Assembly (NCBI GenBank): GCA_020912385.1
Contig: CP087215.1
Coordinates: 310,001-374,000, forward strand
Reading direction: 5' to 3'
From: Neofusicoccum parvum
Lineage: Eukaryota; Ascomycota; Dothideomycetes; Botryosphaeriales; Botryosphaeriaceae
Length of the DNA stretch: 64,000 nucleotides
Positions within the stretch are counted from its first letter, which is position 1. The number at the start of each line of letters is the position of its first letter. The notes beneath the pieces were generated by a model that was given only the letters and a program-made list of their open reading frames with translations, was not told where the DNA came from and did not search any database. The position numbers and the translations under genes were made by a program. This document shows positions 20,148-62,373 of the stretch, piece after piece.

Positions 20148-21364
20148 ATGGGTGACCAACGCATCTACAGTGCCGTTGCCACAGCTCCAGTCAACATCGC
20201 CACGATAAAGTCAGCAACAAGAAGCATTCGCATTCAGCAAGTACTGACCCATGTTGCAGGTATTGGGGCAAACGCGATGAAAACCTCAACCTACCAACCA
20301 ACTCCTCCCTCTCCGTAACCCTCTCACAGGATGATTTGCGCACGCGCACTACCGTGTCGTGTTCAGCGTCCTATTCGGGAGATACTATCGTCCTCAATGA
20401 CCAAGTGGGAGACGCTTCCGCACCCCGTCTCCAGAAATGCCTCACCGATCTTCGCATCCTCCGCCGAAAGCTGGAGGCTACAGACCAGACGCTGCCTCCC
20501 TTGTCCCGCTATGGCATCCACATTGTCAGCGAAAACAACTTTCCTACGGCCAGCGGCTTGGCTAGCAGCGCGTCAGGCTTCGCTTGCTTGGTTCGTGCCA
20601 CGGCCGAACTTTACAGTCTCTGTGCCACTGTGTCGGCCGCCGAGCTGTCCGGCATTGCGCGATTGGGGTCCGGCTCTGCATGCCGCAGCCTGATGGGCGG
20701 TTACGTAGCCTGGGACCTCGGCAACGAGCGGGATGGATCTGACAGCAGAGCGAGGCAAGTGGCGGCGGCAGCGCACTGGCCAGATATCCGGGCGCTCATT
20801 CTCGTCGTGCGTGACCGGAAAAAGGACGTGAGCAGCTCGAGCGGCATGCAGCTGACGGTGCGAACAAGTGAACTAGCAGCGTACCGAGCAGAGCGGCTTG
20901 TGCCGGTGCGCATGCGGCAGATGGAGGCCGCTGTGATGGGGAGAGACTTCGAAGCTTTCGGAAGGCTTACTATGATGGAAAGCAACTCGTTCCACGCTCT
21001 GTGCTTGGACACACACCCGCCAATCATGTACATGGACGACTCCTCTCGTGCGGCGATCAGAATCGTGGAGCACCTCAACGCTCGAGCTGAGAAGATAGTG
21101 GCTGCATATTCGTTCGATGCAGGACCAAATCCTGTCATTTTCTATTTGGAGGAACACCAGGCCCGCGTTGCTGGTAGCTTCAAGGCCCTGCTCCCAGGAA
21201 AGCAAGGCTGGGACAGTGGCCGTGGCAAGGAGATCTACACCAATGATACCTTCGCTCTGGCTTCGCTGGATGCAGACGTGGCCGTGTTGAACGCCTCCGT
21301 CTCCAGAGTCATCTTGACTGCCGTAGGTGATGGTCCAAGGTGCATCGAGAGCACAGTTTGTTAG
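20148..21364 (+). CDS. ERG19: Diphosphomevalonate decarboxylase (cluster copy)
   Basis: Two exons (20148-20209, 20260-21364; 50-nt intron) give 388 residues, close to the 396 of the yeast enzyme. It decarboxylates mevalonate 5-diphosphate to isopentenyl diphosphate with ATP, in the cytosol. The splice joins ...IATIK to YWGKRD, recreating the family N-terminus (APVNIATIKYWGKR). Other marks are NSSLSVTL, the ATP-binding loop PTASGLASSASGF, the region SGMQLTVRTS, and the catalytic Asp in YSFDAGPN near the C-terminus. It is convergent with mevalonate kinase, 290 bp away. All catalytic landmarks are present, so I expect an active enzyme. Confidence 0.96.
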
Positions 21365-21653
21365 GTTCGCGAAGACGGGACATGCATACTCAATGAATAC
21401 ATCAATCTATCCTTATTCCGCCTCCACCTTCCTCTCGATAGGGAATCATTCCAGCGTTTCTCAGCGAGGTGGTCGAAGAAAGAAAACACCGCTAACCACC
21501 CATTCATTCTTATATCCCACTGTTCTTTGAGGACAATTTTTAGCAATTCGCAGATAAAAAATGGAACACAAACCGCTCCCACACTTACAGGGCGTGCGCT
21601 CGCCTGCTTCAAGCCGTTTACTGAGTATCTCCGATGACAATATCCACCGCCAA

Positions 21654-23141
21654 CTACCTCCAGAACTTCCAACCCTCCCAACACTTGCTAATAGCGTCTT
21701 CGGGGAATGCCTTTTGACTAATGCTCACCAATGCCTCCACGCCCTCGCAGCCTGCTGCGTTCAGAAAGCTCTCCTGGTCGATTTCTTTGCCATTGCGTTG
21801 GACAGCGGGCCACAGCACGCCGACGCCATCGCCAGCAAGCGTCGCTTCGTACTTTTTGAATCCTTCATTCGCCAGCGTTCTTTCCAAGTCCAAGAGTGTC
21901 TGCAGAGTTTTCGTCGCGCTCATATGGATCTCATCGGTCGAATCATCCCGGAAGAGGTCCCGACTGTCGATTCCGGGCTTGAGGAGCGTGATGGTACAGC
22001 CTCCGCCGCCGGCACCAGTAAGCTTCGTCCAGCCGATGCCGGTGTGATCAATGAGCGCGCGGATCCGCTCCAGTCGTGGGTGGGATACACCAAGCGCCAC
22101 AAGAAGGCCGTGATTTGCAGCCATCAGGTCACCAAGGTGCTGGCGTATTGCTGAATCCCCGCATTCCGGATCTCTGCTGGTGATGATACTGTACGCGGAT
22201 TTCGAAATGCCGTGGATGGCGTCGAGAATGTGCTCTACAATGGCCGGATACGCATTTTTGAAAGCCTGGACTCTAGCAACCTCAATGGCGGTGCTACGGG
22301 GCGTTTCCGTGTTGACGATTAGGAGAGGGAACTCCGGAAAGTCGCGCAATGATGTGACGAGCGGAAGCCCTCCCTTCGTGTTCTGGAAAAGAACAGCTTT
22401 CCCACCGCTGGAAACTGTGTTGTCTACGCCTGATGGGTTACCGTGATAACACAGCTCGCCGACAAAAGCCCACCTATTTATGTATTTCAGGTGCAGCTCT
22501 GACTCGATGGGAGACTGGTTGTTGCAGGGCCTACTGAGTGCTCTCTGTTGAAGTAGCAGCGCAGTAGCTAGGCACACTGTGACGCTGGCGCTGCTTCCCA
22601 AGCCTGCACCAATCGGTATCGAGGAGCGAAGAGTGTAAGTGCAGGCAGCCGACTTCTGGGAGCTTAGCGAGAGGAAAAGGTAGAGAAATGCAGATACAGA
22701 GGCCAGATGAGCTTTACGGACGCACTGTGGCTTGCCTAAACTGACAGCTTGTACGTGCGGTTGAAGCGCCTCAGTAAGATCAGGATCGAGAGCGGTGACG
22801 AGGTCGTAGTGATATTTCTTCTTGCCAGGAGCGGAGAAAGCCACCCATGGTAGTTCTTTGATATCCCAGCTGTGGCAAAGCCCAATGTCGGGGAAGTGGA
22901 GGGATACAGTAGTACGGCTCGAATTAGAGGGAAAGGTGACAAGTAGGTATGAGCGAAGCGATATCGCTGCAGCAATCGCAGCCTATTGTTCCGTTAACGA
23001 TCAATCTCCCCGTGAAAAAGGCCTTCTCACCTTATCATAGACCACAGCATGCTCCCCATACAGAATAACCTTGCCAGGTGCGGAGACCATAAACGAAGAT
23101 ACTAAAGGCTGGGAGGGGCTAATAACGACATGCGTATTCAT
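21654..23141 (-). CDS. ERG12: Mevalonate kinase (cluster copy)
   Basis: Two exons (23141-23031 and 22982-21654; 48-nt intron) give 479 residues. The three GHMP-kinase motifs are intact: SAPGKVILYGEHAVVY at the N-terminus, IPIGAGLGSSAS for ATP, and KLTGAGGGGC near the C-terminus; NPSGVDNT is also typical. It phosphorylates mevalonate to phosphomevalonate in the cytosol. A TATATAG at 23153-23160 is only about 12 bp before this ATG, so translation may start at the second Met (ATG at 23090), which would give the MVSAPGKV start seen in related enzymes. It is convergent with the decarboxylase gene and tandem with cytochrome b5. Confidence 0.95.
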
Positions 23142-23595
23142 GCTTCCCGAGTCTATATAGTGGAGGAACTCAGGAGCAAGTGTGTTGATAATGCGTACGG
23201 AGGAAGTTTATCAGCGGCCCGCAGAAGCTAAAGCGTTCAAACTCGTGGTGATCTTAAAGTGTAATGATTGCGCGGGTTTTCGGCATTTTAAGTACAAGGT
23301 GCGATATAAAGGACAATCTTCGGAATTCTCAAAAGCCGAAGAGATCCATAAATCGCAATTAATGACATTTCTACACGGAGCTTTTGGGTCCACCGGGTTT
23401 CCATTTTCTTCTAAGCGTTATTACCCTCAGAGAAAATCTAAGAACAATATACACGCCATAAAGACAACCATTGATCCTGAAAAAACAATGGTTCCGAAGC
23501 CGTGTATCAAATTCTTTAAACCTAAGCGTTGATTCATTCAAAGTACACAAAATGAAGCAAAAAAGGACTATCTAATACTTGTACTGGATGCCAAT
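23142..23595. other. Intergenic between cytochrome b5 and mevalonate kinase
   Basis: 454 bp holding the mevalonate-kinase promoter (minus-strand TATA at 23153-23160) and the cytochrome b5 3' end. An open plus-strand frame (23182-23532) is Lys-rich and unrecognised; I treat it as chance. Confidence 0.45.
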
Positions 23596-24290: not shown

Positions 24291-25129
24291 TTTTATCCGT
24301 GTAGAAGGGTTCCGCGAAATGACTGAGAAGTCGAAAATCAAATGACCGTAAAATGATGATTGTTCCTCTTGAAACAAAATGTACATAATTTAAATATAGT
24401 AGTAGCTCGTTCCTAAGCTGAAGTCAAAAAGCAACTATCCGACAATGTAAATCAGCCGACCAAAGGCTTGCTGTGTTAGATTCCGCTGAACCGTCGACTA
24501 AGGAGCATGCGTCCCAGCTCTTCCTCCTAACAAAAAAGAGTTCTTTAATAAATTATCTCTGTCCTCTAAATCACTCTATCATAAAGCTCAGGCTGTGCTA
24601 GCAGGGTGATGCAGGAGCCCAACGAAACTAAATTCGCCGGGCTCGGACTCCGGCGACGGAATTCTTACCGGGGCCAACGCACGGTCAATTTGCACGTATC
24701 GGTATAATACTCCCCTTTCAAACTGCAAAATTACTAGAAGGATTCTAAATGTGAAAAGGCACGCAGTTCGGTGAAGTCTATATCTGTGCATTCGAAGTTC
24801 CGCTGATACGGTTGGATTTGAGAGCTGTCGTGGCCGTAAGAGACGGTGGATTGACAAGGCGCGCTAGAAACTTCGAGTTCGAGACTTGTGATTGGTCAGA
24901 CGCAGGTGAATGGGCGATAAGATTCAGCGGTGAAGGATAGGGCAGTGACAGCATTTGTAACAGTTTGTGCAGAGCCATCCATCCCAAGTACCTCCAGGAA
25001 TTCGAGTTCTGTTGCTTTTCAGAGGCAGTTTCTGAGCCAGATTAAGTTGCAGTGCGTAGCCTCTCGGCTTCAAAATGCTCAACAATAAGGCTGACCAATC
25101 TTGCAGAACCCACAATACACACAAAAAGA
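24291..25129. promoter_or_regulatory. Divergent promoter between cytochrome b5 and MFS transporter 1
   Basis: 0.84 kb between divergent genes, fairly AT-rich in 24300-24600. No gene or strong box recognised. Confidence 0.45.
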
Positions 25130-26849
25130 ATGGACGCAGGTTCGGGCAGCAGCACAGTCCCCAGTGCTGTCAACGGAGCTTCCAGGGCTGAAAACCGGGA
25201 TGCACAAGCTAGCCCTGCCACCGCAATGGGTGATATCGCAATACAGGATCCAAATACTGTATGGTGGGATGGTGACGCGGATCCTGGAAATCCGATGAAC
25301 TGGAGCCAGCCAAAGAAATGGACGAACATCTGCCTGGTGTCCTTCATCTGTTTCGTCACACCCCTTGCCTCCTTCATGTTAAGCCCCGGAGTGCCCGACG
25401 TCATGAGAGAATTCGAAAGTTCCAGCAACTTCGTGGCTTCATTCATCATTTCAATTTACATCCTCGGCTTCGCTATCGGGCCCTTGGTCCTCGCTCCCCT
25501 CTCAGAGATCTACGGACGCTCGCCGGTCTACCATGTAGGGAATCTCGGCTTCCTGGTCTTTACCATACTCTGCGCTGTCTCAAATAGCATGGAAATGCTG
25601 ATGATTTGTCGGTTTTTCTCGGGAGTCTTTGGGGGTCCAGCTGTGACAATTGGGGGAGGGACGGTGGGCGATCTGATGCCCCCAGAAAGCAGAGGTCGTG
25701 CGATGGCTATTCGTACGATTGGACCAATTATTGGGCCTGTGATAGGCCCAGTCAGTGGGGGTTTCTTGATAGAAGCCGCCGGATGGAGGTGGGTGTTCTG
25801 GCTCATGGCCATTTTGGTATGTCTTCGGCGCAAGCCCGTCTTTGTATCTTCCCCTTCATGCGGTTGACTACCCCTTCCGATCGCTGTTATGCTAGCTTCA
25901 TGGCACTAACGGAAAATTGGTGTTCAGACTGGCGTCATGACCGTGGCATGCCTGTTCTGTCTCCCAGAAACGTACGCACCCGTGCTTCTCGCCCGCAAAG
26001 CCGCTCGTCTCCGGAAAGCTACGGGCAATCAAGCTCTTCGTTCTAGACTTGATAATAACACGTCCACGAGAGAGCTTTTCCGTCGTTCGATTATCCGGCC
26101 CATCAAACTACTCGTCCTTTCGCCAACAGTTACGTTCTTAGCTCTTTACATCGGGGTTATATATGGAACATTTTTCCTGCTCGCCACAACATTCACCTTT
26201 GTATTCCAGGAACAATACGGTTTCAGCAGCGGAATCGTCGGTCTTACATACCTCGGTACTGGCGTTGGTCAGCTGCTTGCGGTTCTATTATCTGGGCCTT
26301 TGTCCGATTACGCAGTGATAAGGGCCAAGACGCAGAACGGGACTTTGAAGCCAGAAGATCGGTTGCCTTTGTGGCTAATCGTGCCACCTGCGATGTGCAT
26401 CCCGACTGGACTCTTTTTGTATGGCTGGACGGTACAGCACCAGACCCATTGGATCATTCCTCTTCTTGGCAATGCGATTTTCGGGTATGGGTTGGTTTCC
26501 TGCGTGGTGAGATGCCCTCGAGAATCAACGGAAGATATGGACTACATGTCATTTTTAAACTCGTAGCCGTGAAGCTAACGGACTTCCACAGACAACAATT
26601 CAAACTTACCTCGTCGATGCCTTTACTTTATATTCTGCTTCTGCAATGGCCGCCAATACAATTCTACGAAGTTTCTTTGGAGCATTTTTGCCACTTGTGG
26701 GCCTGGATATGTATGAAATCCTCGGTTTCGGGTGGGGCAACTCACTCTTGGGCTTTGTCACGCTGGCCCTGATTCCAATTCCGACGATATTTAGCATTTT
26801 TGGCGAACGCATCAGAAAGAAAGGCACATCTTGGTATCGAGTTAATTGA
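25130..26849 (+). CDS. MFS transporter 1 (drug:H+ antiporter DHA1 type)
   Basis: Three exons (25130-25816, 25928-26506, 26592-26849), all phase 0, give 507 residues. A hydrophilic N-terminus with the DPGNPMNWSQPKKW signature precedes about 12 membrane segments. The loop motif APLSEIYGRSPVY and the antiporter motif C region (TIGPIIGPVIGPVSGGFL) are clear. Family members export small molecules across the plasma membrane by proton antiport. In this cluster it is the likely exporter of the end product, and may contribute to self-protection. Introns of 111 and 85 nt are longer than the local norm. Confidence 0.92.
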
Positions 26850-27556
26850 ATCAGGGACTATGTGACGCCACGAAGCGGAGAAGCGAAAGTTGGACAAGGT
26901 AGTCATGCGCACAAAGTTTCGTTTGTAGGAAAAGGGAACGGCATACTCTCGTCTGGACAAAGGACAAATTTCGGCCGTAGAAGAGAGGGGCACTGAGGTC
27001 TATTCTAGAGTTAGTATGAAAAGACCCCAGGTCTCACCTGCGCTTCAGCGTGCAGGACACATCGATATTCGAAAGTCAAAATGATCCCTACAAGCCAAAT
27101 ATCTTATATAAGGTGACTGCGAAAAGGTAGCTCCTATCTAAGTCGACGAAGCCCAACCATGATGTCGTGAAGGGAATTGCGGATGGAAGAGTGGAAATTG
27201 ACTGGATTACTACTAATTGAAAATATTCTTAAATCTCTACTAGCCCAGATATAATCGAAGTTCTACCAATGAGAGTCCAGATTTCCCGGCAAGAGAATGT
27301 ATCGTTGTTCTGATTAGCACCCACCAACTACAGATAGAAGTGTAGGCGATGTCATATAACTAATTCTAAAGCTCGGTATCCGAGACAGTTGTGGAAAACT
27401 GCCGACTCAGGATTTGAAAACTCGGATCTGTGGGTCTAGCGTGGTAAATATATATCGCAGTACCTGATATTCGCGAAATAGCCTGCTGGATACCGACAAC
27501 GGGCCCTCTACTACCCTTTTTCAATTATTTTCGGCGACGAGGCCTCCTTGGGACAG
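26850..27556. promoter_or_regulatory. Intergenic, promoter of MFS transporter 2
   Basis: 0.7 kb between two plus-strand transporters. ATATATAT at about 27447-27455 lies roughly 100 bp before the next ATG. No gene seen. Confidence 0.45.
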
Positions 27557-29228
27557 ATGGCATCCAATTCCACGCGGGTTGAGATCCATGATCTCAACCT
27601 ACCATCAACGACCTCAGATGCACTCGAGGCATCGAAAACGGAGCACGAGATGACATTTTTACAGGCCATTCGCATCCATCGCAAAGCGGTGGTTTGGTCT
27701 GCCGTTGTATCATTGGCAACTATCATGGACGGTTACGATCTGCAGATCATGACTGCTTTCTACGGTTACCCAAGCTTCCAGAAGAAATATGGTGTGCAAC
27801 TCGATGACGGCTCCTACTCCATACCAGCATCCTGGCAACTAGGACTCAACCTGGCTTCGAATTTTGGTCTGATTGTCGGCGGATTCTTCAACGGCTGGCT
27901 CGTCGAGCATGTTGGGCCAAGACGAATGATGATCTACTCCTACATCGCTTTGGCTGGATTCATATTCATTTCCTTCTTCGCACCACGAATCGAGGTACTA
28001 CTGGTTGGAAGTTTGTTCTGCGGAATTCCTTGGGGTGTCTTTGCTACGATCGCACCGCTCTACGCTGCTGAGGTATGCCCACTCGTGCTACGAAGCTACC
28101 TTACGACCTACGTCAGCGCAACCTGGATTATCGGACGCATACTTGGCACTGGAGTCCTCCAAGCTATGATCCATAATCCAACGGAATGGTCTTACCGCGT
28201 CCCCTTCGCACTTCAATGGATATGGCCTTTACCATTAGCTCTTACGATTTATTTTGCACCTGAGTCCCCCTGGTGGCAAGTGCGTCGAGGAAATCTGGTT
28301 GCCGCCGATGCCACGATGAGACGGCTAACCAGCCGAGCTTCCCGAGTGGAAGAGGACGAAGCAGCCAGACAAGCTGTCGCCTTGATGTTCCACACAGTCC
28401 AGACCGAAAGGAACCTCAAAATTGGCAGCAGTTACATTGATTGCTTCCGCGGCACCAATATTCGGAGGACCGAGATCGCATCCGTTTCTTGGGGTGGCCA
28501 AGTCCTTACCGGATTTGCGATACAGAACTACATCACGTATTTCTTTACGCTCGCCGGACTGGCCTCCAGCAACGCGTTCAAGCTGACCCTTGGAGTTTTT
28601 GGTGCTGCCTTGTTGTGCACCGTATTCTCTTGGCTCCTGCAGTCTCGGTTTGGACGGAGAGAGATATACATCATCGGGCTCTGTGTTATGACCCCAATAA
28701 TGCTCCTTGTCGCTTTGCGTACGTCATCCCAAATTTCGCAGCAAGCACTGCCTTCGGCGATCTGACTTTCTTCGCGTAGTGGACTTCACCGCTCCCAGTT
28801 CCGCACGTAACTGGGGCCAATGTTCGATGATAGTCGTGTGGTACGGTATTTTTGGCCTCTCCGTTGGTCCCATCCCATTCGCCATCGCGACGGAAGTTCC
28901 AGCCAGCCGGCTCCGCACTAAAACCATCGCCATCAGCCGGAACACGTACTACGCCTTGTCCACGATCAATATCGTTGCCACCCCGTATCTGATCAACCCG
29001 ACAGCAGGTAATCTGAAGGGTAAAGCGGCTTTCCCTGCTACTGGCTTCTCACTGATGCTGCTATTTTGGGCTTGGTTTCGATTACCGGAAACAAAGGGCA
29101 GGACATTCGAGGAACTAGATGTCATGTTTGAACAAAAAATATCGGCGCGGATATTCGGAAGCATTGTTCTCAATGCTGATGAATTAGAACGAAGTCACGG
29201 CACCACGGTAGAGCAGTCGAAATGTTGA
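27557..29228 (+). CDS. MFS transporter 2 (sugar-porter family, maltose/quinate-permease-like)
   Basis: Two exons (27557-28718, 28780-29228; 61-nt intron) give 536 residues with about 12 membrane segments. Sugar-porter marks are MDGYDLQIMTAFYG in the first segment, the VGPRRMM loop, PESPWWQVRRG at the central loop, and PETKGRTFEELDVMFE at the end. The family takes up sugars, alpha-glucosides or polyols such as quinate by proton symport. This is unusual for a terpenoid cluster, where DHA-type exporters are expected. It could import carbon for the pathway or carry a cyclitol-like intermediate; both ideas are inference. A TTG nine bases upstream opens the same frame, but ATG at 27557 is the likely start. 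Confidence 0.9.
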
Positions 29229-30122: not shown

Positions 30123-31910
30123 ATGACTCTCGTGCCAGCTGTTGTGTTGGGCTCCGAAGTAGCTGCTTCAATATTTGTATTTGGTGTTCTCGTGACTTCT
30201 CATTACTTCATGTGCTGAAGCTCTTCATAGCTCCTTTACGCCATCGGTTCAATAGTATACAACCTTTACTTCCATCCATTACGCAAAATTCCGGGGCCAA
30301 GACTTGCTGCTGCCACCGAATTTCCGTTTATATTCAACCGCTGTTTTGGCTTTCAAGTTCGATGGACGAAACGGCTTCACGACAAGTACGGAGAAGTTGT
30401 CCGTGTGGCGCCAAGGCAGCTGTCTTACGCGTCTGCTGGTGCTTGGAAGGACATCTACGGCCACAGGATCGCAGGGAAGCCTGCATTGCCCAAAGGTACT
30501 TGTTCACCTTCGTTGATAGAGATAGTTCTGACTTTTGTGATAGACTTGAACTTCTACGGGCCGGATCTTGTCGGGTCGAATGGCATTACAAGGTGAGTTG
30601 CGAAAGTTTGACAGAAAAATGAAGGGAATCGAGTCACCTTACAGTCTTTTCATTTCTTGTCGAGGTTGTTTCCATGTTTCGTTAACGAATCATGCCACGA
30701 GCAGGTCCAACGAAGAGGATCACGCCCGTCAGCGTCGTCTTCTATCTCATGCATTCTCCGAGAAGGCGCTGCACGATCATCAAGCTGTGATGCAGAGACA
30801 CGTCGATATTCTGATACAAAAGCTCGGTGAGCTTGGTGCAGTGGATGGCGTTGATATGTCACAGATGTACAGCTATTGTGCATTTGATACCATCGCTGAC
30901 ATGTTGTTTGGGGCGTCTCTCAATATGCTGGAGAGTACAGATTATCGCCCGTGGGCTGTGGCCCTCATCGGCGCTGTCAAAACATTCGCACTTCTGCCTG
31001 CCATCAAAGCCAGCTACCCCGTCCTCAGTGCAACTCTACGGCGTATCTTCGTTCCTGAACAGCTCTTCAAACAACGCGACTTACACGGACAATATACTCG
31101 ACACTTCGTCGACACCCGTTTGCAGAGTAAAACAAATAACCAGGATATCTGGAGCTTCATGGTAAATCGCAATGGAGAGAGCAAGGACGTACCGCTGCAT
31201 GAGATGTATGCAATTGGGGGTGTTTTGATGGGCGCTGGTGGTGAAACCTCGTCTACTCTCCTTTCTGGATTGACGTACCACCTCCTCAGGAATCCGGACA
31301 AGATGGCTACCCTGACCGAGGAAGTGCGTGGTGCCTTCAAAGACCCATCAGAGATGGACTCTGCACGCCTCGGACAGCTGCCATACCTACGTGCCTGCAT
31401 CCAGGAGGGATTGCGCATTTATCCGCCGGCGGCAACGGGCATGCCCCGTGTCGTGCCACCGGGCGGCAGCGTGATTTCCGGGACGACCATCGCGGCGGGA
31501 ACGACCGTCTATGTGAGCCCCTTTGCAGCACACCGTTCTAGCGCAAACTTCTACGAGCCGGACCAATTCTTGCCTGAACGGTGGTTTGAAGAGCCGGAGG
31601 AAAAGTACGCGAATGACGTGCTCGATGTGATGCAGCCATTTCTCTATGGGCCGAGGAATTGCATCGGGAAAAAGTAAGCATCACACCCCCTGCCTTCTCC
31701 ATCGCTTTGCGTTTTGTGTCCGAGCAGAGGTTGATTCGACTTGCACACAGTCTGGCCAATATCATGATGCGGCGGATCCTGGCGAACGTGCTCTGGCATT
31801 ACGATCTTGAGCTTTGCCCAGAAGTGGGAAAGTGGGACGATCAGATCGTTTTCACAAACTGGCAAAAGCCCCCGTTGATGTGCAAATTGAAGCCTGTTGT
31901 GCGGGAATAA
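30123..31910 (+). CDS. Cytochrome P450 (P450-B), isotrichodermin C-15 hydroxylase-like
   Basis: Five exons (30123-30176, 30231-30495, 30544-30592, 30705-31673, 31751-31910) give 498 residues. The anchor exon is followed by YFHPLRKIPGPRLAA (Pro-rich hinge) and the VRVAPRQLSY region. The I-helix reads GAGGETSSTLL, ExxR is in EGLRIYPP, PERW is at PERWFE, and the heme loop is FLYGPRNCIGKN. The last intron (31674-31750) must be removed to restore GKNLA after the heme loop. The family (CYP65-like) hydroxylates sesquiterpenoid skeletons, so it is a likely tailoring enzyme here, bound to the ER. It resembles P450-F more than the other P450s of the window. Confidence 0.9.
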
Positions 31911-32856: not shown

Positions 32857-34712
32857 TTATCCAATATGCACTGTCTTTGCCTCCATATACGCCATCAAGC
32901 CATCACGCCCCATCTCCCTCCCTTGCCCGCTCTCCTTCCAGCCGCCAAACGGTGCCTGGACGCTCGGAACAAACATGTTGTTCACTCCCACCGTCCCTGC
33001 CTCCACCATCTCGGCCACGCGGAGAGCTCGAGGAATAGACGATGTAAACACGGTCGCTGCACCCTATATCAGCCATTTCCAGGTCTCGGTAGAAGAATAA
33101 GCACTAGGGGGTTACTGGAAAGCCCGTAGAAGCTGTCATTCGCCTCGCAGATGGCTTCTCGCTCCGTCTCAAACGTTCGCACCACCCCCACCGGCCCGAA
33201 GATCTCTCGTCGGTAGATGTCGGCGTCTGGCCTGGGGTCCACGAACAGCGTGGGCTCCACATAATAGCCTTTCTCACCGACACGTCTGCCTCCGACAAGG
33301 AGAGTGGCCTCATGCGCGCGCTCGGCGTTTTCGATAAAGGACATGACACGGTCGAACTGCTCGCGGTCAGCGAGCGGGCCCAGCTCCTCCAGCGGCGAGC
33401 GGAGAAGAGCCGGGTCGCGCATGGCGGCTGCGATGGACGAGAAGGCGGTCTGCAGCGCGGCCAGGAAGCGCGGGGCGACGGAGCGCTGCACCAGGATGCG
33501 TGACGACGCGAAGCAGGCCTGGCCCGAGTTGACCAGAAGACCCGCAGTACAGCTGCCGCACCGAGTCAGCCTGGTCGCCGCGCCGAAACCGTGCCCGCGT
33601 CGGAGGGTGCGTACTGCCTCACCGCATTCTCCAGGTCCGCGTCGTCGAACACGATCGCTGGGCTCTTGCCCCCAAGCTCCAGGGTCACCCGCTTCAGGTT
33701 GCTCCGCGCCGCCGCCGCGTGGATCTTCTTGCCGGTGGCCACGGATCCGGTGAAACTGATCTTGGCGATGTTTGGATGCTCGGCCAGCAAGGCACCTGTG
33801 CTGCCAGGCCCGGACAGGATTTGGACAACTCCCGGGGGGAAGCCGGCAGCTTTAATGAGCGTACCCATGGCGGCGAGCCCCAGGGGCGCTTTCTCCGACG
33901 ATTTGAAAACGACCTGCATGGGAGGTGAGCGTCGGATGGGATAGGCATCCAGCGAGTGCACAAACCGTATTTCCCGCCGCTAGAGCAGGAGCGGCCTTCC
34001 ATGCGAAGGTGCTGTTCAGTGTGAATTAAAGAAAGAGCGTCGAAAAGTATCGCCATTGGAGTCAACAAGCGGCCTACCTGTGGCTGGAATTCCAAGGCGC
34101 AATGCCTGCGCACACACCCAACGGCTGATACGTCACAAACCGCCAGGGGCCGCCTGCCTCCGGTCTGAATGAAGAGCCGGCGATCTTGTCCGCCCAGCCG
34201 GCATAGTCTGTCGGTTGCTACGCATAAGCGGGATATTACATCCAGGCCTACTCGCCGAAATGGCGACACTCACACCTCCAAGCATCCACCGTCGCCGTCT
34301 TGATCATTTCCTTGAGACCGGCTGGCTGACCCATCGTCAGTGTCTCCAGGGCCACAAGCTCCTCGATATTCTCCTCGATCAGGTCTGCCAGCTTCAACAT
34401 GCGTTTCGCTCGCTCTGCGCCGGTGAATGTGCTCCACGGCCCATTCTTGAACGCTTCCCAAGCGCCAGCGACGGCGGCATCGACCTCGGCGCGGCCCGCG
34501 ATGGGGACAGATGTGATGAACTCCTCGGTGGCCGGGTTGTAGAGAGGAATGACATTGTCATCGCTGGGGGGTGTGTACTGCGGGATACGCGCAAGTGAAC
34601 GACGGGTAAGCTAGTGCCATTCAGACCAGAGCAAGTACAGGCATCCACTTACCTCGTTATTGATGAAGAAATCGCTTTTCAGTGACGAACCTTTGTCGGC
34701 GGCAGCCATCAT
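32857..34712 (-). CDS. NAD(P)+-dependent aldehyde dehydrogenase
   Basis: Seven exons (34712-34653, 34577-34274, 34207-34078, 34011-33966, 33913-33615, 33552-33116, 33056-32857) give 491 residues, the normal family length. Landmarks in order: IAPWNS near the substrate tunnel, cofactor Lys in [22 protein letters not shown], the general-base Glu in LELGGKSP, the catalytic Cys in [16 protein letters not shown], and the C-terminal [13 protein letters not shown]. It oxidises aldehydes to acids in the cytosol. In this cluster it could oxidise a P450-made terpenoid aldehyde to a carboxylic acid. The start follows an ATG pair (34712 and 34709). Splice borders at 34077/34012 leave a slightly unusual NSSHST segment. 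Confidence 0.9.
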
Positions 34713-43534: not shown

Positions 43535-45240
<1,706 letters not shown>

Positions 45241-45566: not shown

Positions 45567-45584
45567 TAGACCCTCGGGGGTCTA
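45567..45584. repeat. Small hairpin
   Basis: TAGACCC, loop TCGG, GGGTCTA: a perfect 7-bp stem with a 4-nt loop. Function unknown. Confidence 0.4.
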
Positions 45585-46332: not shown

Positions 46333-48137
46333 CTAGACCTCGACCTCTGCATCCCGCCGGCGGATCATCAGCTTGGCCGCGGGGTCTGCGTAGTACGACG
46401 CCCCCGCGTAGCGATGCTGAACCACCGCCGCTTCAGGGAGCTTGAGGTCGTATTTCATCAGGATGTGGCAAAGCGCGACCTTTAGCTCGCTGCTAGCGAA
46501 GAAGCGCCCCGGGCACGCGTGCTTGCCGTGGCCGAAGCCAAGATGGCGCTCGCTCGTGGAGACGAACAGCGCCTCCTTGTCTTTGCCCGGGACGTCGCGC
46601 ATGCGCAGGAACCTGTAGCCGTCCCACTCGTCGGGCCTCGCGTACACCGCGGGGTCCCACATCCGGTGCGAAGACACCGCCAACTTCGTGCCCTTGGGCA
46701 GGTACGTGCCATCTGTCAGCTTTACATCCTTGGTGGCGATCCGTCTCATCGAAACTGGGAATCATTGTCAGCATCGCTGACCGCGCGGCGAGAGGCGCAG
46801 CTCGACATACCCACAGCTATCGGCTTTAGGCGGAGAGACTCCTTGATAACGCTATCGAGCAGCTTCATGTTGTGCAGGGATGTCTTCTTCCAGCCGCCGT
46901 CCCGAAGCACGTCGGTGATTTCTTCCCGCAGCGCGTCGATGATCTCCGGGTGGCGGACGATGTCCAGCATGGTCACGGTCAGGAGGTCGGATGTCGTGTG
47001 GATCGCGACCGTCGAGATGAACAGCTGCACGATCTCGGGGTCGTACGAGCAGCCTCGGGCCTTGGCCGCCTGCTCGAACCACTCGATGGCGTCGTTGTGC
47101 TCCACGGGCACCTTGCCCTGAGCCTCCAGCGCCGCCTTCTCGGCGCGCCGTTTCTCGAGCACCGGGCGAATGATCTCGCCGGCCTGCTTCACCTCGGCGC
47201 GCAGTTTCTGGGCCTCGGGGAGGAACCAATGCACGATGCGTCGCAGGGACCCGGGAACCCGGCGAAGCTGCTCCGCCGCGAGCATGATGTCGACCGTGTA
47301 GTTCACCGTAATCTTGAGCCAATCCTCATCTCGACAGAGTTCCTCGCCGAGAAAGATCCTGGACGAAAGCCGGGCGACCAGATCCAGATTTACGCTCTTT
47401 AGATTGACCTCATGCCACCCTGCCCAACGTCAGCGAGTCACGGATAAGCACACACGTGTCAAGGCAGCAATTACCCTTGTTGTCTGTATAGATCTTCTTG
47501 AGCGCGAAGTCCGACTCGTCAGAGAGCGGTTGCGTCATCCTGACTGCCGTGCGGGAGGATATTAGCCGCTCGCCTACAACCGGAGCACCCGAGGGCTTGA
47601 GACGTACCGAGGTTCTGAGTCAGCCACTTCTGGATGACGAGGATGCCGATGTCGTTGTCGAACATGCCCTCTCGAGTGGGCTCGAAGCCGGGAAGCTCGC
47701 TGAAGAACAACTGGTGCGCCGGTTAGCCTCGCACCCTACGCGACCACCCCGCGACCGAGCCTTACATGTGCCATGAACGCCACGAAGCTGAGATTGGGAT
47801 CGTTTCTGATCTCGTTGGCGTATTCGGGCGGAAGAATGGTGGTCAATCCAACGTCGGCTCCTATCATGTTGAAAGGCTTCTTAGGAAACCGCTCAATTCC
47901 CTGCTGGATGATCTGTCTCGCTTTGACCAGCCACTCCTTCTTCACTCGGCTTGCTGTCAGCTCAAAAGGTTTCTTCGGGTTTATCAAAGGGAGCCGGGTA
48001 GCATTCGGCATGCTGAGGCGGTAATAGGCGATGACTAATAAGCCCATCAGGGCACACAGGATGGAGTTGGCCCGGGAGAAGTCCTCCCGCACAATTCCCG
48101 CCTCCCCCAAGGTTGTGACGTTGTACGGATTGTTCAT
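46333..48137 (-). CDS. Cytochrome P450 (P450-E), ent-kaurene-oxidase-like, paralogue of P450-A
   Basis: Five exons (48137-47766, 47710-47608, 47543-47475, 47419-46811, 46754-46333) give 524 residues. A membrane anchor at about 28-43 is followed by INPKKPFELTASRVKK. Further marks are VAIHTTSDLL in the I-helix, KESLRLKP (ExxR) and the heme loop FGHGKHACPGRFF. It is alignable with P450-A along its whole length, with intron positions and three exon lengths (103, 69, 422 nt) identical. A minus-strand TATATAAG at 48203-48210 lies about 70 bp upstream of the start. It is divergent from P450-F and probably co-regulated with it. It should oxidise a terpenoid intermediate at the ER. Confidence 0.93.
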
Positions 48138-48693: not shown

Positions 48694-50503
48694 ATGGATT
48701 CGACTACTCTTTTCACTCCTCGAGACCTTTATGCTATACAGTGGTCTAAGGTCATCGTCGCGCTTCCTGTCATAACTCTGATAGTATGTGCCGTTTGCAG
48801 GTGCTAAGCCTGTCTTGAAACTCACTGGTTTATACAGTACATTCTCTACCACTGTAGCATCTACGCCTACAATCTCTACTTTCATCCCCTTGCTGGATAT
48901 CCGGGGCCATTGCTATCTCGTGCGTCGTCCCTGTGGTACGCTCGCTCGCTTTCTCGCGGGAGAATTGCTCAAGATACGCTGGCCTTGCACGATCGCTATG
49001 GCCCAGTCGTCCGGATCGCACCAGATGAGCTTTCATACATCAACCCAGAAAACTGGAAGGAAATCTACGGACTTAAGCCCGGGAAAGGCGAATTGATCAA
49101 AGATCCAAGATACCACGATACTGTCAAGCCAACACCGACGATCCTGACCGGAAATTGGGAGGAGCATAGCCAATATCGCAAAATGTTATCCCCCGCCTTT
49201 TCCGAAAGAACTCTGAAAGACCAGGAGCAGATTTTGCACACATACATTGACCTTTTCATCAAACGACTGCACGAAGTGTCAGAGGAGGGTAAGAAGCCCA
49301 TGGAAATGACGGTTTGGTGGAACGTTTGTCACCCCCGCCCTCCGGACGAAGATTATTTGAGCTGACAATCAATGGCACCGTAGTCCCTTACGTTTGATGT
49401 CATCGGATACCTCGGTATGAAGCGCCCACGGGTCAAAAGAGCTGAAACATCCACACGCTTACACTTTCGACAGCTTATGGAGAATCTTTCAACTGTCTTA
49501 CCAGCCCCAAGCTCCACGATTGGATAGAGGCGACGCTGAACATTGCAATTCTCATGTCCCTTGGCCAGGCTGGCCGCCAGCTGCCCGCGCCGTTCAACAA
49601 GATGTACAAGAAGTGGGCCATCCCAGAATCAGTGCGCAGGAACGCAAAGCTGCATTCAGATCTGACCAAGGTATAACCCCCTCTTGTCACACGGCACCGT
49701 GAAACTAAGCACGACTGCCCAGGAAAAACTTCACAACCGTCTCCAGAACGAGCCCAGTCACATGGATGTGGTGAATCGCATGATCGCCGCCTACAAGAAT
49801 GGTGAAGTGCCATATGATGTGCTGAAGGAGCACGCATCCATCCTTACCATCGGCGGAAGCGAGACCACAGCCACCTTGCTAGCAGGTGCGTTTTGAGAGA
49901 GCAAGCAGGCCGCCGAACCGAATCGCAGCTGACGCAAGATCAACAGGAGCGACCTACTACCTGGGCACGAATCCCGCCGTGTTCCGCAAGCTCGCCGACG
50001 AAGTGCGCGCCGCCTTTGCCAGAGATGAGGACATCACCGTGGCAGGCACCAACGGGTGCCCGTACCTCTTGGCATGCATCGAAGAATCGCTCCGCATATA
50101 CCCGCCATCGCCGGCCAACCACACGCGCATCACCCCGGCCGAGGGAATCGTCCTGGACGGCCGGTTCGTCCCGGGCGGCATGGCGGTGGGCATGCCCATG
50201 TACGCGGCCTTCCGCAGCGGCAGCAACTTCCGGAATGCTGACCGCTTCGTGCCCGAACGCTGGCTGGGAGACGAGGAGTATGCCCAGGACAAAAAGCTGT
50301 CTCTGCAGCCCTTCTCGGTCGGCCCGCGCAACTGCCTCGGCCGCGCCCTTGCGTACCAGGAAATCAAGTTGGCTTTGGCGAAGCTGGTGTGGCATTTCGA
50401 TGTAGAGCTTCGCCCCGAGAGTAAGAACTGGTTGGACCAGCAGAACTTCACGTTTTGGGTGAAGCCTCAACTGTGGGTGAACATTACTCCTGCGCGCAGA
50501 TGA
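48694..50503 (+). CDS. Cytochrome P450 (P450-F), isotrichodermin C-15 hydroxylase-like
   Basis: Six exons (48694-48783, 48838-49323, 49384-49414, 49474-49670, 49723-49885, 49947-50503) give 507 residues. An N-terminal anchor lies within residues 18-45, then YFHPLAGYPGPLLS. The I-helix reads IGGSETTATLL, ExxR is in EESLRIYPP, PERW is in VPERWLG, and the heme loop is FSVGPRNCLGRA. It belongs to the same broad CYP65-like group as P450-B, with a similar layout but different intron phases. It is likely to hydroxylate or desaturate the sesquiterpenoid at the ER membrane. Confidence 0.92.
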
Positions 50504-53538: not shown

Positions 53539-54884
<1,346 letters not shown>

Positions 54885-55417: not shown

Positions 55418-56808
55418 TTATCCAATAGATATCTGAGAAACTTCTTCAAAATGGCTGATTACATCGCGGAGGCGGCCCTGTAGCATCTCGAACATCTGGG
55501 CTTGAAGCTGATCATGTGATTCGTCAATGAGAGATCTCCCCTGTGCCAACATCTCCTGAAGACGTGTGAGCTGGAGGGAGAGTAAAGCATCCATGATCCG
55601 AGCCCGCTCCTTTGGGGTGTTTGCGTGGTAGTCTCCGACAAAGATAGGCTGCTCTGATAGCTCGTCGCGGAGAGGCCCGTCCACCTGTTGCTGGACGGCT
55701 CTCTTCGTCCAAGAAGTGTATGTTGCGTGCAGCCGTTGCAGAATGCCGATCGCTTTATCCGCGACAAGAAGCGTCAGCAGCGTTGCCACCGACGAGCGGC
55801 ACCGATCACAGCTCAGAAGCGCCTCACAGTCCGCCATCGTCCTTTTGTTCGCCGCGAGCGTGGCCTCGGCTGTCAGCGGAGATATGATCTCTGCCCAGGC
55901 TATAGACTCCTCGAGATCTAAGATTGCTTGCTTGACGCATTCGCAGCTCGGTGTCGAGATCTCGTTGTTTGATCGACCGTCTGCCGGGTTGACGCTCGTA
56001 GCTTCGGTATCGACCGGAAACGCGGTGCCCGTTTCGCTAGTGGAGGCAAAGAAACTACAAGTTTCGAGAGAGAAGTCGTCGGCAGCAGCAGCAGCAGTGA
56101 ACGTGTTGGGAGGTTGACGTTGCGTGGCTTTTCCCAAACACGTCAGCAAAAAGCGAAGCGTCGAACGGGGAACGAGAAACGTACCCGGCGATAGTAAGCT
56201 ATCATCCGCATGAGGCCTCGCACCAAAATCACCTTTGACACCGTTGCCATACCCGGCTGATGGCGCTTCCAGATCTCCCCGTCTCCCATCCGCCGCAGCC
56301 AGTCCCGTGCCGTATTCAGTCAGCATAAAAACGCTGAAGCCGCGTTGCTCTTCCTTGGCCAGGCGGGCGGATCCTCCGTGCGGCGAGCAATCTTGTGGAT
56401 TTTCAGGAGACATCTTGTTCACGGGCTTTTCTTGGACCAAATCAGCCTTATCGTCCGGAGTCATCGGCTTCCGCTCCTCACCCGACGGCCATCCATCTTG
56501 CGAGCATTTGATCTTGCGCGGAGACTTTTGTTCTTTCTTCGAGGTGCGCTTTCGTTTCTCCGTGTACGTGCACTCGCGCCCCTTGGACAAGCATCGTTCG
56601 CATGCTGGATTCTCGCCACTGCAGCGCAGCTGCACGCGTCAGCGAGTTCCGAGAAGAAAAGATGTTCGAAATCGCGGGGTGCTACCTTTTTCACTTTACA
56701 GCTGACACATGCGGCATGTCTCCCGATCCGGGGCGCTGGCCTGGGACGTGAAGCACAAAGCACGCCACGTGGACTCTTCTCATGTTGCGGCAGCAAAACG
56801 GTGAGCAT
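55418..56808 (-). CDS. AflR-like Zn2Cys6 transcription factor (copy 3)
   Basis: Exon 1 (56808-56686) and exon 2 (from 56629) are joined by a 56-nt intron that splits the zinc cluster: Cys34 and 37 lie before it, and Cys44, 51, 54 and 61 after. A second, frame-neutral 57-nt intron (56184-56128, gtacgt...aaaag) is likely, giving about 425 residues. The C-terminal half has the AflR domain marks: CECVKQAILDLEESIAW, then ALLSCDRCRSSVATLL and a final long helical region. It probably regulates the right-hand mevalonate genes around it. A TTG upstream (56856) opens the frame further, but the first ATG is at 56808. Confidence 0.87.
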
Positions 56809-58269: not shown

Positions 58270-58290
58270 CGCTCTCTCCATAAAAGGGGC
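58270..58290 (+). promoter_or_regulatory. TATA-like box of HMG-CoA synthase
   Basis: CATAAAAGG about 45 bp before the HMG-CoA synthase ATG at 58327, inside a GC-rich stretch with several CCGA tetramers. Confidence 0.45.
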
Positions 58291-58326
58291 TGGCCGGTGC
58301 GTGCGGCATCCGGGCAAGCGGACAGC

Positions 58327-59871
58327 ATGGCCGGACCGGCTCGGCATGTGGGCATCAAGGCCCTGGAAATCTACTTTCCCAACCAGGTCAGCGCTCACCA
58401 CACCTCACGGGCTCGTCAGCTAACGCACAGGGCCAGTGCGTTGATCAGACCGAGCTCGAGCGCTTCCAGGGCGTCGCCCCGGGGAAGTTCACGGTCGGGC
58501 TGGGGCAGACCAGAATGGCCTTCTGCGACGACCGCGAAGGTGAGCCGGACATGCGGCCGCGCGTGGCGGCGGGAGGGCTGACCCGTGGACAGACATCTAC
58601 TCGTTCGCCCTGACAGCCGTGTCGTCGCTCCTGCGCAAGCACGGCGTTGACCCGAGGTCGATCGGCCGCGTGGAAGTGGGCACCGAGTCGCCGCTCGACA
58701 AATCAAAGTCGTGCAAATCGGTGCTAATGCAGCTCTTCGAACCCTCCGGGAACCTCAACATCATGGGCTGTGATACCTTCAACGCCTGCTACGGCGGCAC
58801 CAACGCCCTGTTCAACGCGGCAAATTGGATCGAGTCGGCGAGCTGGGACGGCCGGGATGCCATCGTGGTGGCGGGGGACATCGCCCTGTACAACCAACCC
58901 GCAGCCCGTCCTACGGGCGGCGCTGGATGCGTGGCTATGCTCGTCGGAGCAGACGCGCCGCTGGCTCTTGATGCCGGACTGAACGGCTCGTTCTTCAAGC
59001 ACACTTACGACTTCTACAAGGCTGACTTCAAGTCCGAGTACCCGATAGTTGACGGGCAGTACTCCATTCAATGCTACACCGAGGCTGTCGACGCTTGCTA
59101 CAAAAACTACAACACCCGCAAGGCAGCATTGACTCAGTCACGCTCCACCACTGAGGGCATCGCGCTGGACTTCTTCGACTACATGGCCTTCCACGCTCCA
59201 ACCTGTAAGCTCGTCGAGAAGTCATACGCCCGGCTCCTGTACAACGACTACGTTGCCGACCCCGACAATCCACGCTTTGCCTCGGTTCCGGCCGAGCTCC
59301 GCGGTCTTGGCTTTTGGGAGAGCCTCAAGAACAAGGCTGTCGAGAAGGCCTTTGTTGCGTTGGCAAAGGAGAATTTCACCGCGCGCGTGCAGCCCGCCCT
59401 CACGGTGCCTACTTTGTGCGGCAACATGTACACGGCGAGCGTCTACGGGGCGCTGATCGGCCTTCTGTGCAGCGTTGGAAGCGAGAACTTGCAGGGGAAG
59501 CGCATAGGCATTTTTAGCTACGGTAGCGGCCTCGCCAGCTCGTTGTTCAGCCTGACGGTGCGCGCCGACGTGTCTGGCATGCTGCGCAAAATCGACTTGC
59601 AAGCGAGGCTCGACCAGAGGCACATCTTGCCCCCAGACGTTTACGATAAAGTAAGGACCCGCGACACCCATGGGGCGAAAAAGGCTGACTTTCGCAACAG
59701 GCTTGCCAAATTCGGGAGCAGGCGTACCAAAAGAGCGATTTCACGCCTGTGGGGGATACTGCGAGGCTTCTCCCCGGAACATACTACCTCACGCACGTCG
59801 ATGATATGTTTCGGCGCACGTATCAGGTTAAACAGACGTCGAAGTGCTCTCCGTCCATAGTTCATCGCTAG
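58327..59871 (+). CDS. ERG13: Hydroxymethylglutaryl-CoA synthase (cluster copy)
   Basis: Four exons (58327-58386, 58437-58539, 58593-59650, 59701-59871) give 463 residues. It joins acetyl-CoA and acetoacetyl-CoA to HMG-CoA in the cytosol. Conserved marks are [19 protein letters not shown] after the first splice, VGLGQTRM, Glu in EVGTES, the nucleophile Cys120 in [18 protein letters not shown] and the His loop [12 protein letters not shown]. The last intron (59651-59700) is essential: reading through gives a basic nonsense tail, while splicing restores [20 protein letters not shown], the true family ending. Divergent from the truncated AflR-like frame. Confidence 0.95.
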
Positions 59872-61291
59872 AGCATGTCTCGAGATGGTTCCACTTCTGC
59901 GCCTTTCAATTCTTTATGCATCCTCGTGTCCGATATCCTAATCGTCCGTTGGGCCGGCGGTTCAGCTGAGCATGGGGGAGCAAGAAAAATCCCCTGCAGC
60001 TTATTGGCTCCGCGGCAGCTGAACTATTTGCAGCCGTGCAAGGGATCCCGGGCTGTGCTCAAGCGAGGCGGAGAGTGGCTGACTCATAATCCTGTCCCAC
60101 GCGTGTTCCTGGAGCGCCGGTGCCAATTGTCCTCCTGCGTCGAGCGGCATGTAGCAGGCTTGATGCCGCATTAAGCATCGAAGAGGCATATTTCCCTCCG
60201 CGTGAACCTTGCCGCTGATATGGGTGCACCCGACTCACCAGCTCCCTGGGCCCGCTAATCAATCCGCGGCCCCGCTCGTTCGTATCGGCGAGCTGTGAGT
60301 TTTAGCTCGAGGTCGCGGTGATTTTTGCTCCGCGTGCCCAAAGCACGCCATCTGCCGGGCCCGCATACAGCCTCACCCGCAGGGGTGGGTGAGGAGGGCC
60401 TCCAATGATCTCGACGCCCAAGACGAGAGGGTTGCCCATGCTTTAGCGAGCCGTGGAGCGCCCTTGTCGGTTGGCGAGTAGGGGAGATGTCTGATCCACT
60501 ACGCTGGGAGCTAGGCAAGATTGGTTCCACGGAACGCGGGTGTGCATTGGGAGGGCGGAGCGCCACTCCCTATCTTCCGAGTCCAAACAAATCCCCGTAG
60601 CGTGATCTTCGCTGCGAGCGCTCACCCACAGATCGTGCCACACTGCATGATGCATGCATAGAGCGCAGCTGCATTCGATGCGCGTCTTCTCAGATATTTG
60701 CAGTTATTCCACCAATCATCAAAACGTTTGTGTGCGTAGTATTGTAGCCAAATCAGGAAACCCGAAAATACTCTCGCGTAGAGCGATCATCGCGCTATGG
60801 TAGATCCGACGGGAAATACGAAGCCTGCTTGTTGATCGTTGTTGTAAGGCTGATTAGCATGATTGCAAGCACCCTAGTCCACGCGGAACATTTCGGCGGA
60901 TTTATTGAACATGTCGGCCATTATGCAAGACATCGCTGGCTCACAGCCAACCTGGCATCGATGCAATTACGCTTCCCGAGCGGTCATTCGTGGTTTTGAA
61001 AGGGAAACGGCGGCCACTCGGAACAGAGTCTGCATAACCACCGAGCGAACTGCGGTGAGACATGCTCGGAGAAGCCCTCGACAATCCGCTTCAGACATAT
61101 CCGATTGTCCCTTCAAATGAGTACAATCGCTCTGAAGTCTACGCGTTGAAGAACAGCACTGGTCGCCGACTTGAGTGGCCCACGCAGTGCCTATCGCCGT
61201 TAATAAATCTATCACATTGCTTGCGTCATCTCCGGCCATTCAAGCCATCTTTTGCATTCTGCTTCAATATTCAGCATCGCCAGCTGTCACA
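59872..61291. other. Long intergenic region upstream of FPP synthase
   Basis: 1.42 kb between two plus-strand mevalonate genes. Only short antisense frames are present. It contains the FPP synthase promoter (CCGA tetramers in 60980-61170). No gene found. Confidence 0.45.
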
Positions 61292-62373
61292 ATGACCGTC
61301 TCGCTTAGCGAGTTCCACAACGTCTTCCCGCGGCTGGTTGATGATCTGCTTGCTCACTGTAAGCAGTACAACCTGCCCGAAGTTGCCCTTCGTCGGGTCA
61401 CAGACGTAAGCAATTACGACCGGACAATATTCCCACGAAAGCTGACAAGCCGTCCTAGAGCTTGAACTACAATGTTACGGGAGGCAAATGCAACCGTGGA
61501 ATATCTGTCATCGACACCGTGTCTCTCTTGCTCGACCGTGGCCTGACCGAGGACGAGTTCTTCCACGCCGCGACTCTCGGCTGGATGGTTGAGCTTCTCC
61601 AGGCCTTCTTCCTGGTTTCCGACGACATCATGGACCACTCAACGACGCGCCGCGACAGTCCCTGCTGGTACCGTCACGTCGGCCTGGAGGCGATCAACGA
61701 CGCCTTCCTGCTCGAGTCCGCCATCTACATTCTGCTGAAGAAATACTTCCGCGACACGGAGGCCTACGTCGAGCTGTTCGAGCTGTTCCACGAAGTCACG
61801 TTCCAGACCGAGCTGGGCCAGGCGTGCGACCTTCTCACGGCCTCGGAGGAGGCGGACCTCGATGATTTCTCGCTGGAGAAATACGACTTCATCATCACCT
61901 ACAAGACAGCGTACTACAGCTTCTACCTTCCGGCCGCCCTCGCCATCGTGTTCTGCAAACTGGCCTCTCCTGAAAACCTGCAGACGGCGAAGGACATACT
62001 CATACCGATGGGCCAGTACTTCCAGATTCAGGATGACTACCTCGACTGCTTTGCGGATCCAGCAGTGCTCGGCAAGATCGGCACGGATATTCAAGAGAAC
62101 AAATGCTCATGGCTAATCAATCAAGCATTGAGGATTGCTACGCCCGAGCAACGCAGAGTGCTTGAGGAGAACTATGGCCGCGAGAATTGTGAAAACGAAG
62201 CGAAGGTGAAGGAGATCTACCAACAATTAGAGCTAGATAAGATTTACGCCGATTTCGAGGAGAAGCGCGTTGATGAGATCAAGAGTCATATCTCAAAAGT
62301 GTATGAGGGTGGTGGCCTGAGAAAAAAGGTGTTCGAGGAGTTTCTAAGGAAGATCTATAAGCGTGGCAAGTAG
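61292..62373 (+). CDS. ERG20: Farnesyl-diphosphate synthase (cluster copy)
   Basis: Two exons (61292-61405, 61459-62373; 53-nt intron) give 342 residues, near the 352 of yeast Erg20. It condenses IPP with DMAPP and geranyl diphosphate to make farnesyl diphosphate in the cytosol. The first aspartate-rich motif is DDIMD at 93-97, preceded by LQAFFLVS with the aromatic residues that limit chain length to C15. The second is DDYLD in [17 protein letters not shown] and the C-terminal basic KIYKRGK also fit. It gives the cyclase at 37.5-38.9 kb its substrate. It is the last recognisable gene of the window. Confidence 0.96.

Follow-up and report, generated by a model that had tools for sequence, protein, structure and literature searches.

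We analysed a 64,000-nucleotide stretch of DNA from the fungus Neofusicoccum parvum (hereafter the window), which corresponds to C10:310001-374000 of a 44.0-Mb, 18-contig genome. Positions 20148-62373 of the window, from the start of a diphosphomevalonate decarboxylase gene to the end of a farnesyl-diphosphate synthase gene, contain second copies of the genes for six mevalonate-pathway enzymes, interleaved with a sesquiterpene synthase gene and a second gene for glyceraldehyde-3-phosphate dehydrogenase (GAPDH). Gene models were built with a small home-made splice-aware predictor, rerun with flanking DNA, and were checked against Pfam and NCBIfam. The NCBIfam check covered HMGS, MK, MVD and IDI (equivalog models with curated cut-offs) and ACAT (a thiolase subfamily model). 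The central genes are the following:

20148..21364, + strand: diphosphomevalonate decarboxylase (MVD), second copy; PF18376/PF22700, TIGR01240 above cut-off
21654..23090, - strand: mevalonate kinase (MK), second copy; PF00288/PF08544, TIGR00549 above cut-off
37503..38939, - strand: class I sesquiterpene synthase with DDEID and NDMLSLRKE motifs; spliced by eye, PF19086 on an earlier model
44124..45240, + strand: second GAPDH, altered close to the active site, a candidate for self-resistance; PF00044/PF02800
51922..52697, - strand: isopentenyl-diphosphate isomerase (IDI), second copy; PF00293, TIGR02150 above cut-off
53539..54884, - strand: acetyl-CoA acetyltransferase (ACAT), second copy; PF00108/PF02803, thiolase subfamily model above cut-off
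58328..59871, + strand: HMG-CoA synthase (HMGS), second copy; PF01154/PF08540, TIGR01833 above cut-off
61292..62373, + strand: farnesyl-diphosphate synthase (FPPS), second copy; PF00348

An earlier note on this DNA had placed six supply enzymes within 42 kb, and the Pfam and NCBIfam matches bear this out. It had also taken all catalytic motifs to be intact, which is mostly the case. FPPS carries DDIMD and DDYLD, ACAT the thiolase motif CNGGGG, MK the motifs GAGLGSSAS and LTGAGGGG, and IDI the motifs TNTCCSHP and WGEHEMDY. The Cys and His motifs of HMGS (NACYGG and FHAP) are unaltered, and YSFDAGPN is retained in MVD. Two places depart from the claim: the Thr that adjoins the catalytic Glu of HMGS is replaced by Ser, and the ATP-binding motif of MVD reads NFPTASGLASSASGFAC, where the housekeeping proteins P0149 and P0150 have NFPTAAGLASSAAGFAA. 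HMGS retains 179 of 193 near-invariant columns (93%; 116 matches compared) and differs at the other 14, and MVD retains 142 of 160 (89%; 118 matches compared).

The six supply genes at the locus are duplicates, not sole copies. The search for a second genomic copy of each enzyme, which the earlier note had proposed as a check and whose failure would have refuted it, succeeded for six out of six, with 59-83% identity to the likely housekeeping copy. The values are 83% for ACAT (C1:3817846), 76% for IDI (C5:2638751; 62% to C4:21345), 75% for FPPS (C3:2040000; 53% to C13:1666525), 62% for MK (C11:1085065; 45% to the C4 copy), 59% for HMGS (C6:479829; 70% to the C4 copy and 55% to that at C10:51 kb) and 59% for MVD (C11:640880). 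The phylogenies proposed in the same note were limited to HMGS and MVD; for both enzymes, database proteins that match the other genomic copies group with the housekeeping orthologues of related fungi, which speaks against these two genes of the locus being themselves the housekeeping orthologues. The clustering of the copies was compared with random placement of 27 genomic copies of pathway enzymes, a set that includes eight prenyl synthases of any kind and, of the thiolases, only the three best. In 200,000 trials a 42.3-kb stretch held at most five copies (once) and never six, whereas the real positions of these 27 put six in the window locus and five at C4:19-53 kb.

The GAPDH gene in the window is one of two GAPDH loci found in the genome, and over the 168 amino acids compared its product is ~75% identical to the copy on C13. 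Beside the catalytic Cys, CLAPLAK of the C13 copy has become CLAVLAK, the substrate loop differs from that of the C13 copy, and NEWGYS of the solved structure 8de5 reads NEWAYS in the window protein. The window copy is thus both co-clustered with the synthase and altered in sequence where the C13 copy is canonical. A co-clustered, altered GAPDH is a defining trait of heptelidic acid clusters, and heptelidic acid has been reported from Phyllosticta, a member of the same order as Neofusicoccum. Among the 27 relatives of the synthase, which include proteins from A. flavus, Penicillium, Aureobasidium, Xylaria and T. virens, are an A. flavus ‘cyclase’ (68% over 98%) and a T. virens protein (60% over 56% of the query). 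Both T. virens and A. oryzae are described as producers of heptelidic acid, which inhibits GAPDH.

The synthase, the tailoring cytochrome P450s and a regulator are contiguous in one locus, as judged by Pfam matches of the predicted proteins. The accessory genes are listed below; the ends of the P450 and transporter models are approximate.

17578..19427, + strand: cytochrome P450 (1), just outside 20148-62373; PF00067 on 18254-18994
25046..26772, + strand: major facilitator superfamily (MFS) transporter, rough model; PF07690 on 25046-25864
27482..29225, + strand: sugar-porter-type MFS transporter, rough model; PF00083 on 27557-28762
30231..31907, + strand: cytochrome P450 (2); PF00067, E 1e-47 on 30580-31674
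32857..34712, - strand: aldehyde dehydrogenase; PF00171 on 33072-33851
34950..36650, + strand: cytochrome P450 (3), approximate ends; PF00067 on the predicted protein
39390..41321, + strand: cytochrome P450 (4); PF00067 on a 173-amino-acid piece, E 8e-5, slightly below the Pfam cut-off
42389..43534, + strand: Zn(II)2Cys6 regulator; PF00172, E 9e-9
46333..48137, - strand: cytochrome P450 (5), paralogue of P450 (1); PF00067 on 46749-47429
48808..50503, + strand: cytochrome P450 (6); PF00067, E 2e-39 on 49883-50500
55418..56808, - strand: Zn(II)2Cys6 regulator; PF00172, E 3e-5, 31% match to a protein of the C4 cluster

In order, the left part of the window holds a FAD monooxygenase, a Zn2Cys6 regulator, an O-methyltransferase, a cut-down AROM gene, a DAHP synthase, a relic of HMG-CoA reductase (HMGR), P450 (1), MVD and MK. 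The two MFS transporters follow MK, and after them come P450 (2), the aldehyde dehydrogenase, P450 (3), the sesquiterpene synthase, P450 (4), a Zn2Cys6 regulator and GAPDH. To the right of GAPDH lie P450 (5), P450 (6), IDI, ACAT, a further Zn2Cys6 regulator, HMGS and FPPS. Of the six P450s that the earlier note had counted between 20148 and 62373, five lie inside; the sixth is at 17.6-19.4 kb, outside that stretch. Directly left of the window, at C10:304900-309626, a large PDR-type ABC transporter gene was read by eye and may mark the left edge.

We propose, with a probability of about 0.7, that the locus is a heptelidic acid-like sesquiterpenoid cluster, which has acquired duplicates for six of the eight enzymes leading from acetyl-CoA to farnesyl diphosphate (FPP). 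Its terpenoid probably serves in defence. The parts of this proposal differ in strength. Dedicated precursor supply by the six duplicates is, from the sequence, quite probable. The GAPDH and the family of the synthase together suggest a heptelidic (koningic) acid-type cluster with self-resistance, and for a product of that type we regard the odds as evenly balanced. Once the cluster is activated, ACAT and HMGS would push acetyl-CoA into HMG-CoA, the housekeeping HMGR on C5 (possibly also that of the C4 cluster) and phosphomevalonate kinase (PMK) on C1 would perform the two steps missing at the locus, and MK, MVD, IDI and FPPS would pull mevalonate through to FPP. The synthase would then cyclise FPP and the P450s oxidise the product, with the aldehyde dehydrogenase also taking part in product formation, and the MFS proteins would export it. 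The altered GAPDH would keep glycolysis going despite a GAPDH-inhibiting product. In such a scheme the pathway is not replaced; the cluster would widen supply on either side of a shared and still regulated HMGR step.

Several observations weigh against this proposal, and some of them concern the missing steps. No full HMGR or HMGR catalytic domain was found in the window, either in a genome-wide search with PF00368, which matches only on C5 and C4, or in a permissive search with the C4 HMGR protein. What is present is the following:

15813..16109, - strand: HMGR relic, reduced to N-terminal and linker stretches; matches the C4 HMGR protein with E 4e-7

At the DNA level, two stretches of 120 and 105 bases match the N-terminal coding region of the C4 HMGR gene at 73% identity, and we take the relic to be the remnant of an HMGR that once belonged to the cluster. 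PMK is not coded at the locus, and no second PMK was found in the genome; the single copy is at C1:1533827 (TIGR01219, 249 bits on the open-frame part, below the cut-off of 377). With HMGR present only as a relic and PMK only on C1, the cluster must therefore use enzymes coded elsewhere. The suggestion of the earlier note that the locus makes its own FPP on demand survives as regards six duplicated supply enzymes but is otherwise too strong: at six of eight enzymes the locus is not self-contained for FPP. HMGR is the usual control step of the pathway.

The remaining points on this side concern MVD and the product class. In the ATP-binding motif of MVD two Ala residues have changed to Ser and one to Cys, and the protein sits on a long branch (1.6), which together may reflect relaxed or shifted constraint. 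The relatives of the synthase are spread over several genera, and although those from T. virens and A. flavus make it a candidate HepA/vir-type enzyme, none of the sequences compared was labelled HepA, HepG or Vir4. The TASQK of the window GAPDH and a further stretch also occur in the solved structure 6m5x, which reportedly stems from a study of heptelidic acid self-resistance, so that this part of the difference is not unique. Because the TASQK stretch is common to 6m5x, we narrowed the changes likely to be telling to the replacement of Pro by Val, of Thr by Ile and of Gly-Pro by Asn-Val.

To the left of MVD lie two duplicated shikimate-pathway genes, for both of which membership of the cluster is unsure:

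10040..12592, - strand: cut-down AROM; Pfam, alignment to 6hqv
13383..14543, + strand: extra DAHP synthase; PF00793, TIGR00034, 78% to the C11 and 70% to the C6 copy

The DHQ synthase part of the cut-down AROM is well conserved. The EPSP synthase part is lacking, and in the alignment to 6hqv the AROM match ends before the shikimate dehydrogenase. Its kinase P-loop has changed from GAGKST to GDGEQK and the dehydratase motif from ASHHD to ASHYG, with loss of a His that is presumably catalytic. Together with the DAHP synthase, the gene looks like a route to 3-dehydroquinate; a candidate for the housekeeping AROM is at C4:1796310. The FAD-binding monooxygenase, Zn2Cys6 regulator (weak AflR match) and O-methyltransferase at 3388-9005 of the window may form a separate small aromatic cluster. 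The earlier note had missed the duplicated shikimate genes at 10-14.5 kb, as it had the GAPDH paralogue and the HMGR relic.

These genes raise the question of whether the window holds one larger cluster, in which the mevalonate genes and the DAHP synthase/AROM genes jointly serve a product of mixed shikimate and terpenoid origin and duplicate the two pathways that feed it. The extra DAHP synthase is only 5.6 kb and the cut-down AROM 7.6 kb from MVD, and an O-methyltransferase and a FAD monooxygenase lie beyond AROM. However, no prenyltransferase or ester-forming enzyme was recognised among the modelled genes (no profile search was aimed at them), and the Zn2Cys6 regulator beside the shikimate genes fits a separate small cluster, which makes the larger cluster unlikely. 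The incompleteness of the pathway could also be read as decay, the six genes being what is left of a once-complete cassette that was copied among terpene clusters, is now disappearing gene by gene and no longer has a role in supply. Such decay would account for the reduction of HMGR to a relic, the place of PMK outside the locus, and the long branch and changed ATP-binding motif of MVD. Yet all six genes are open and spliceable, HMGS and MVD (the two tested) retain most of their near-invariant columns, and both have N. parvum database counterparts of equal length at 99% and 97% identity, respectively; we consider decay quite unlikely.

Duplication of a target is a familiar theme in resistance, and the duplicates might instead be insensitive versions of one or more mevalonate enzymes that the product inhibits, for example HMGS or thiolase. 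The 14 altered near-invariant columns of HMGS, one of them beside the catalytic Glu, would suit such a role. A single inhibitor would not require six insensitive enzymes, though, HMGS retains its Cys and His motifs, and GAPDH is a sufficient and more typical candidate for resistance, so that resistance through these copies appears very unlikely. By family, all six are ordinary enzymes and could in principle be housekeeping genes gathered by chance; we reject this reading, the likelihood of which is practically nil given the other copies of all six, the grouping of the other HMGS and MVD copies with housekeeping orthologues (for HMGS in the tree described below) and the failure of random placement to reach six. 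The proposal of a heptelidic acid-like cluster with duplicated supply genes remains the one that we prefer.

The HMGS tree contained 36 sequences: 34 hand-picked among the 120 matches listed, the window copy and the C10:51 kb model. The window copy forms one clade, supported at 100/97, with the C4 HMGS and with proteins of N. parvum UCRNP2, Diplodia corticola and Corynespora cassiicola (one of the two that this species has in the tree). This clade is separate from a group of 30 sequences (99/93) that includes the housekeeping proteins of N. parvum, Diplodia intermedia and Corynespora. The C10:51 kb model falls into neither; its branch is long and its placement unsure. The second HMGS lineage therefore appears to be older than the split between the window and C4 loci. 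We do not claim horizontal transfer of HMGS, since the window and Corynespora copies are hardly more alike (82% identity) than the N. parvum and Corynespora housekeeping proteins (80%).

For MVD, the best 120 of 7,344 matches comprise one N. parvum protein at 97% and 119 others at 58-63%, and among them there is no close relative from outside N. parvum. A Lasiodiplodia theobromae MVD, P0171, shares 60-63% identity with N. parvum MVDs of either kind. It was rejected as a housekeeping MVD, being 62-63% identical to the N. parvum housekeeping protein versus 89% between N. parvum and Diplodia corticola. P0171 groups with the window MVD (100/99); long-branch attraction may contribute, and omitting either protein left both on long branches. 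The two have both Ala-to-Ser changes of the ATP-binding motif in common. They are also changed together at 10 of the 160 near-invariant columns, six times to the same residue, where 2.0 would be expected if the changes were independent, with the caveat that change-tolerant sites would coincide too. Because of these joint changes, shared descent of P0171 and the window MVD, and with it a second MVD lineage in the Botryosphaeriaceae, is likely, though not proven. The window synthase is 100% identical to an N. parvum protein over 61% of its length, which, along with the matches of HMGS (99%, N. parvum UCRNP2) and MVD (97%), assigns the window to N. parvum or a very close relative. The N. parvum database matches of MVD and synthase (both on a contig of length 178,694) probably lie together in another assembly.

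A broader history would combine these lines. We speculate that an old, separately evolving mevalonate cassette has been dealt out among terpene clusters of the Botryosphaeriaceae and some other Dothideomycetes. In the window locus it would have grown to six of the eight steps and would since have lost HMGR, keeping flux tied to the cell's own control point. The adjacent shikimate duplicates would mean that the cluster codes for both routes of supply to a single mixed product. This history is doubtful.

Compared with known systems, the locus belongs to a recognised kind, that of supply genes in a fungal terpenoid cluster, and what we judge to be new is the presence of nearly the whole pathway. 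Fungal terpenoid clusters usually rely on the primary mevalonate pathway or carry one or two supply genes. The hep (Aspergillus oryzae) and vir (Trichoderma virens) clusters may resemble the window in their sesquiterpene synthase, to judge by the A. flavus (68%) and T. virens (60%) relatives, and P450s and GAPDH lie within both. We know of no mevalonate-pathway genes in either, whereas six are interleaved in the window. T. virens has a dedicated GAPDH for sesquiterpene biosynthesis, according to the titles of papers, to which the GAPDH of the window may correspond; a search on koningic acid, gene cluster and GAPDH found nothing in the part of the literature covered. In the same partial literature, the nearest precedent is the ent-pimaradiene cluster of A. 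nidulans, in which a Zn2Cys6 regulator induces HMGR and GGPP synthase together with the diterpene synthase (PMC3323652). It resembles the window in having extra isoprenoid supply genes beside a terpene synthase, but has two of them, including HMGR, and makes a diterpene, in contrast to six, with HMGR lost, and a sesquiterpene in the window. The Alternaria ACT/AK-toxin clusters likewise contain HMGS inside a secondary-metabolite cluster; there it is proposed to act in β-branching of a polyketide pathway (PMC8102738), not in isoprenoid supply as proposed for the window.

The earlier note had called six such genes together exceptional. This holds up against the titles and abstract openings in the literature searched, none of which describes six mevalonate supply genes in one fungal terpenoid cluster. 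Genome papers on Botryosphaeriaceae count terpene clusters (PMC8336260, PMC8012773, PMC8948911), and the word mevalonate does not occur in what was available of PMC8012773 and PMC8948911. The locus may have been glimpsed before in the work of Massonnet et al., because a review citing it reports co-expressed gene clusters of the mevalonate pathway for N. parvum in wood (PMC9415585). A locus with six of eight enzymes, along with two similar loci, offers a natural test of how secondary and primary isoprenoid flux are separated, and reveals which steps evolution duplicates and which it leaves shared (here HMGR and PMK). Terpenoid engineering could draw on it as a ready collection of parts, and for this pathogen of grapevine trunks the altered GAPDH hints at a class of product that can be tested.

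This genome tends to duplicate supply genes at terpene loci: besides the window, the most extreme example, there are two further, milder ones. The locus at C4:18.7-53 kb contains MK, IDI, HMGS, HMGR and a prenyl synthase, with P450s in C4:18700-55400. Its HMGR model of 539 amino acids probably lacks the true N-terminus, as matching sequence continues upstream. A large protein at this locus was read by eye as a probable diterpene cyclase; the 262-amino-acid piece of it that was tested gave no Pfam match. The second locus, at C10:43-70 kb (42800-70000), contains HMGS, an MK-like gene, P450s and a terpene synthase. On C13, ~3.5 kb separates an FPPS-like gene from a weak match to a terpene synthase (E 1e-6) that contains one stop. 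In the N. parvum database protein P0032, the C4 HMGS is annotated as one 760-amino-acid protein with an alpha/beta hydrolase domain, probably from fused neighbouring models. Beside the C10:42800-70000 locus lies a gene that, to judge by eye, probably codes for a polyketide synthase.

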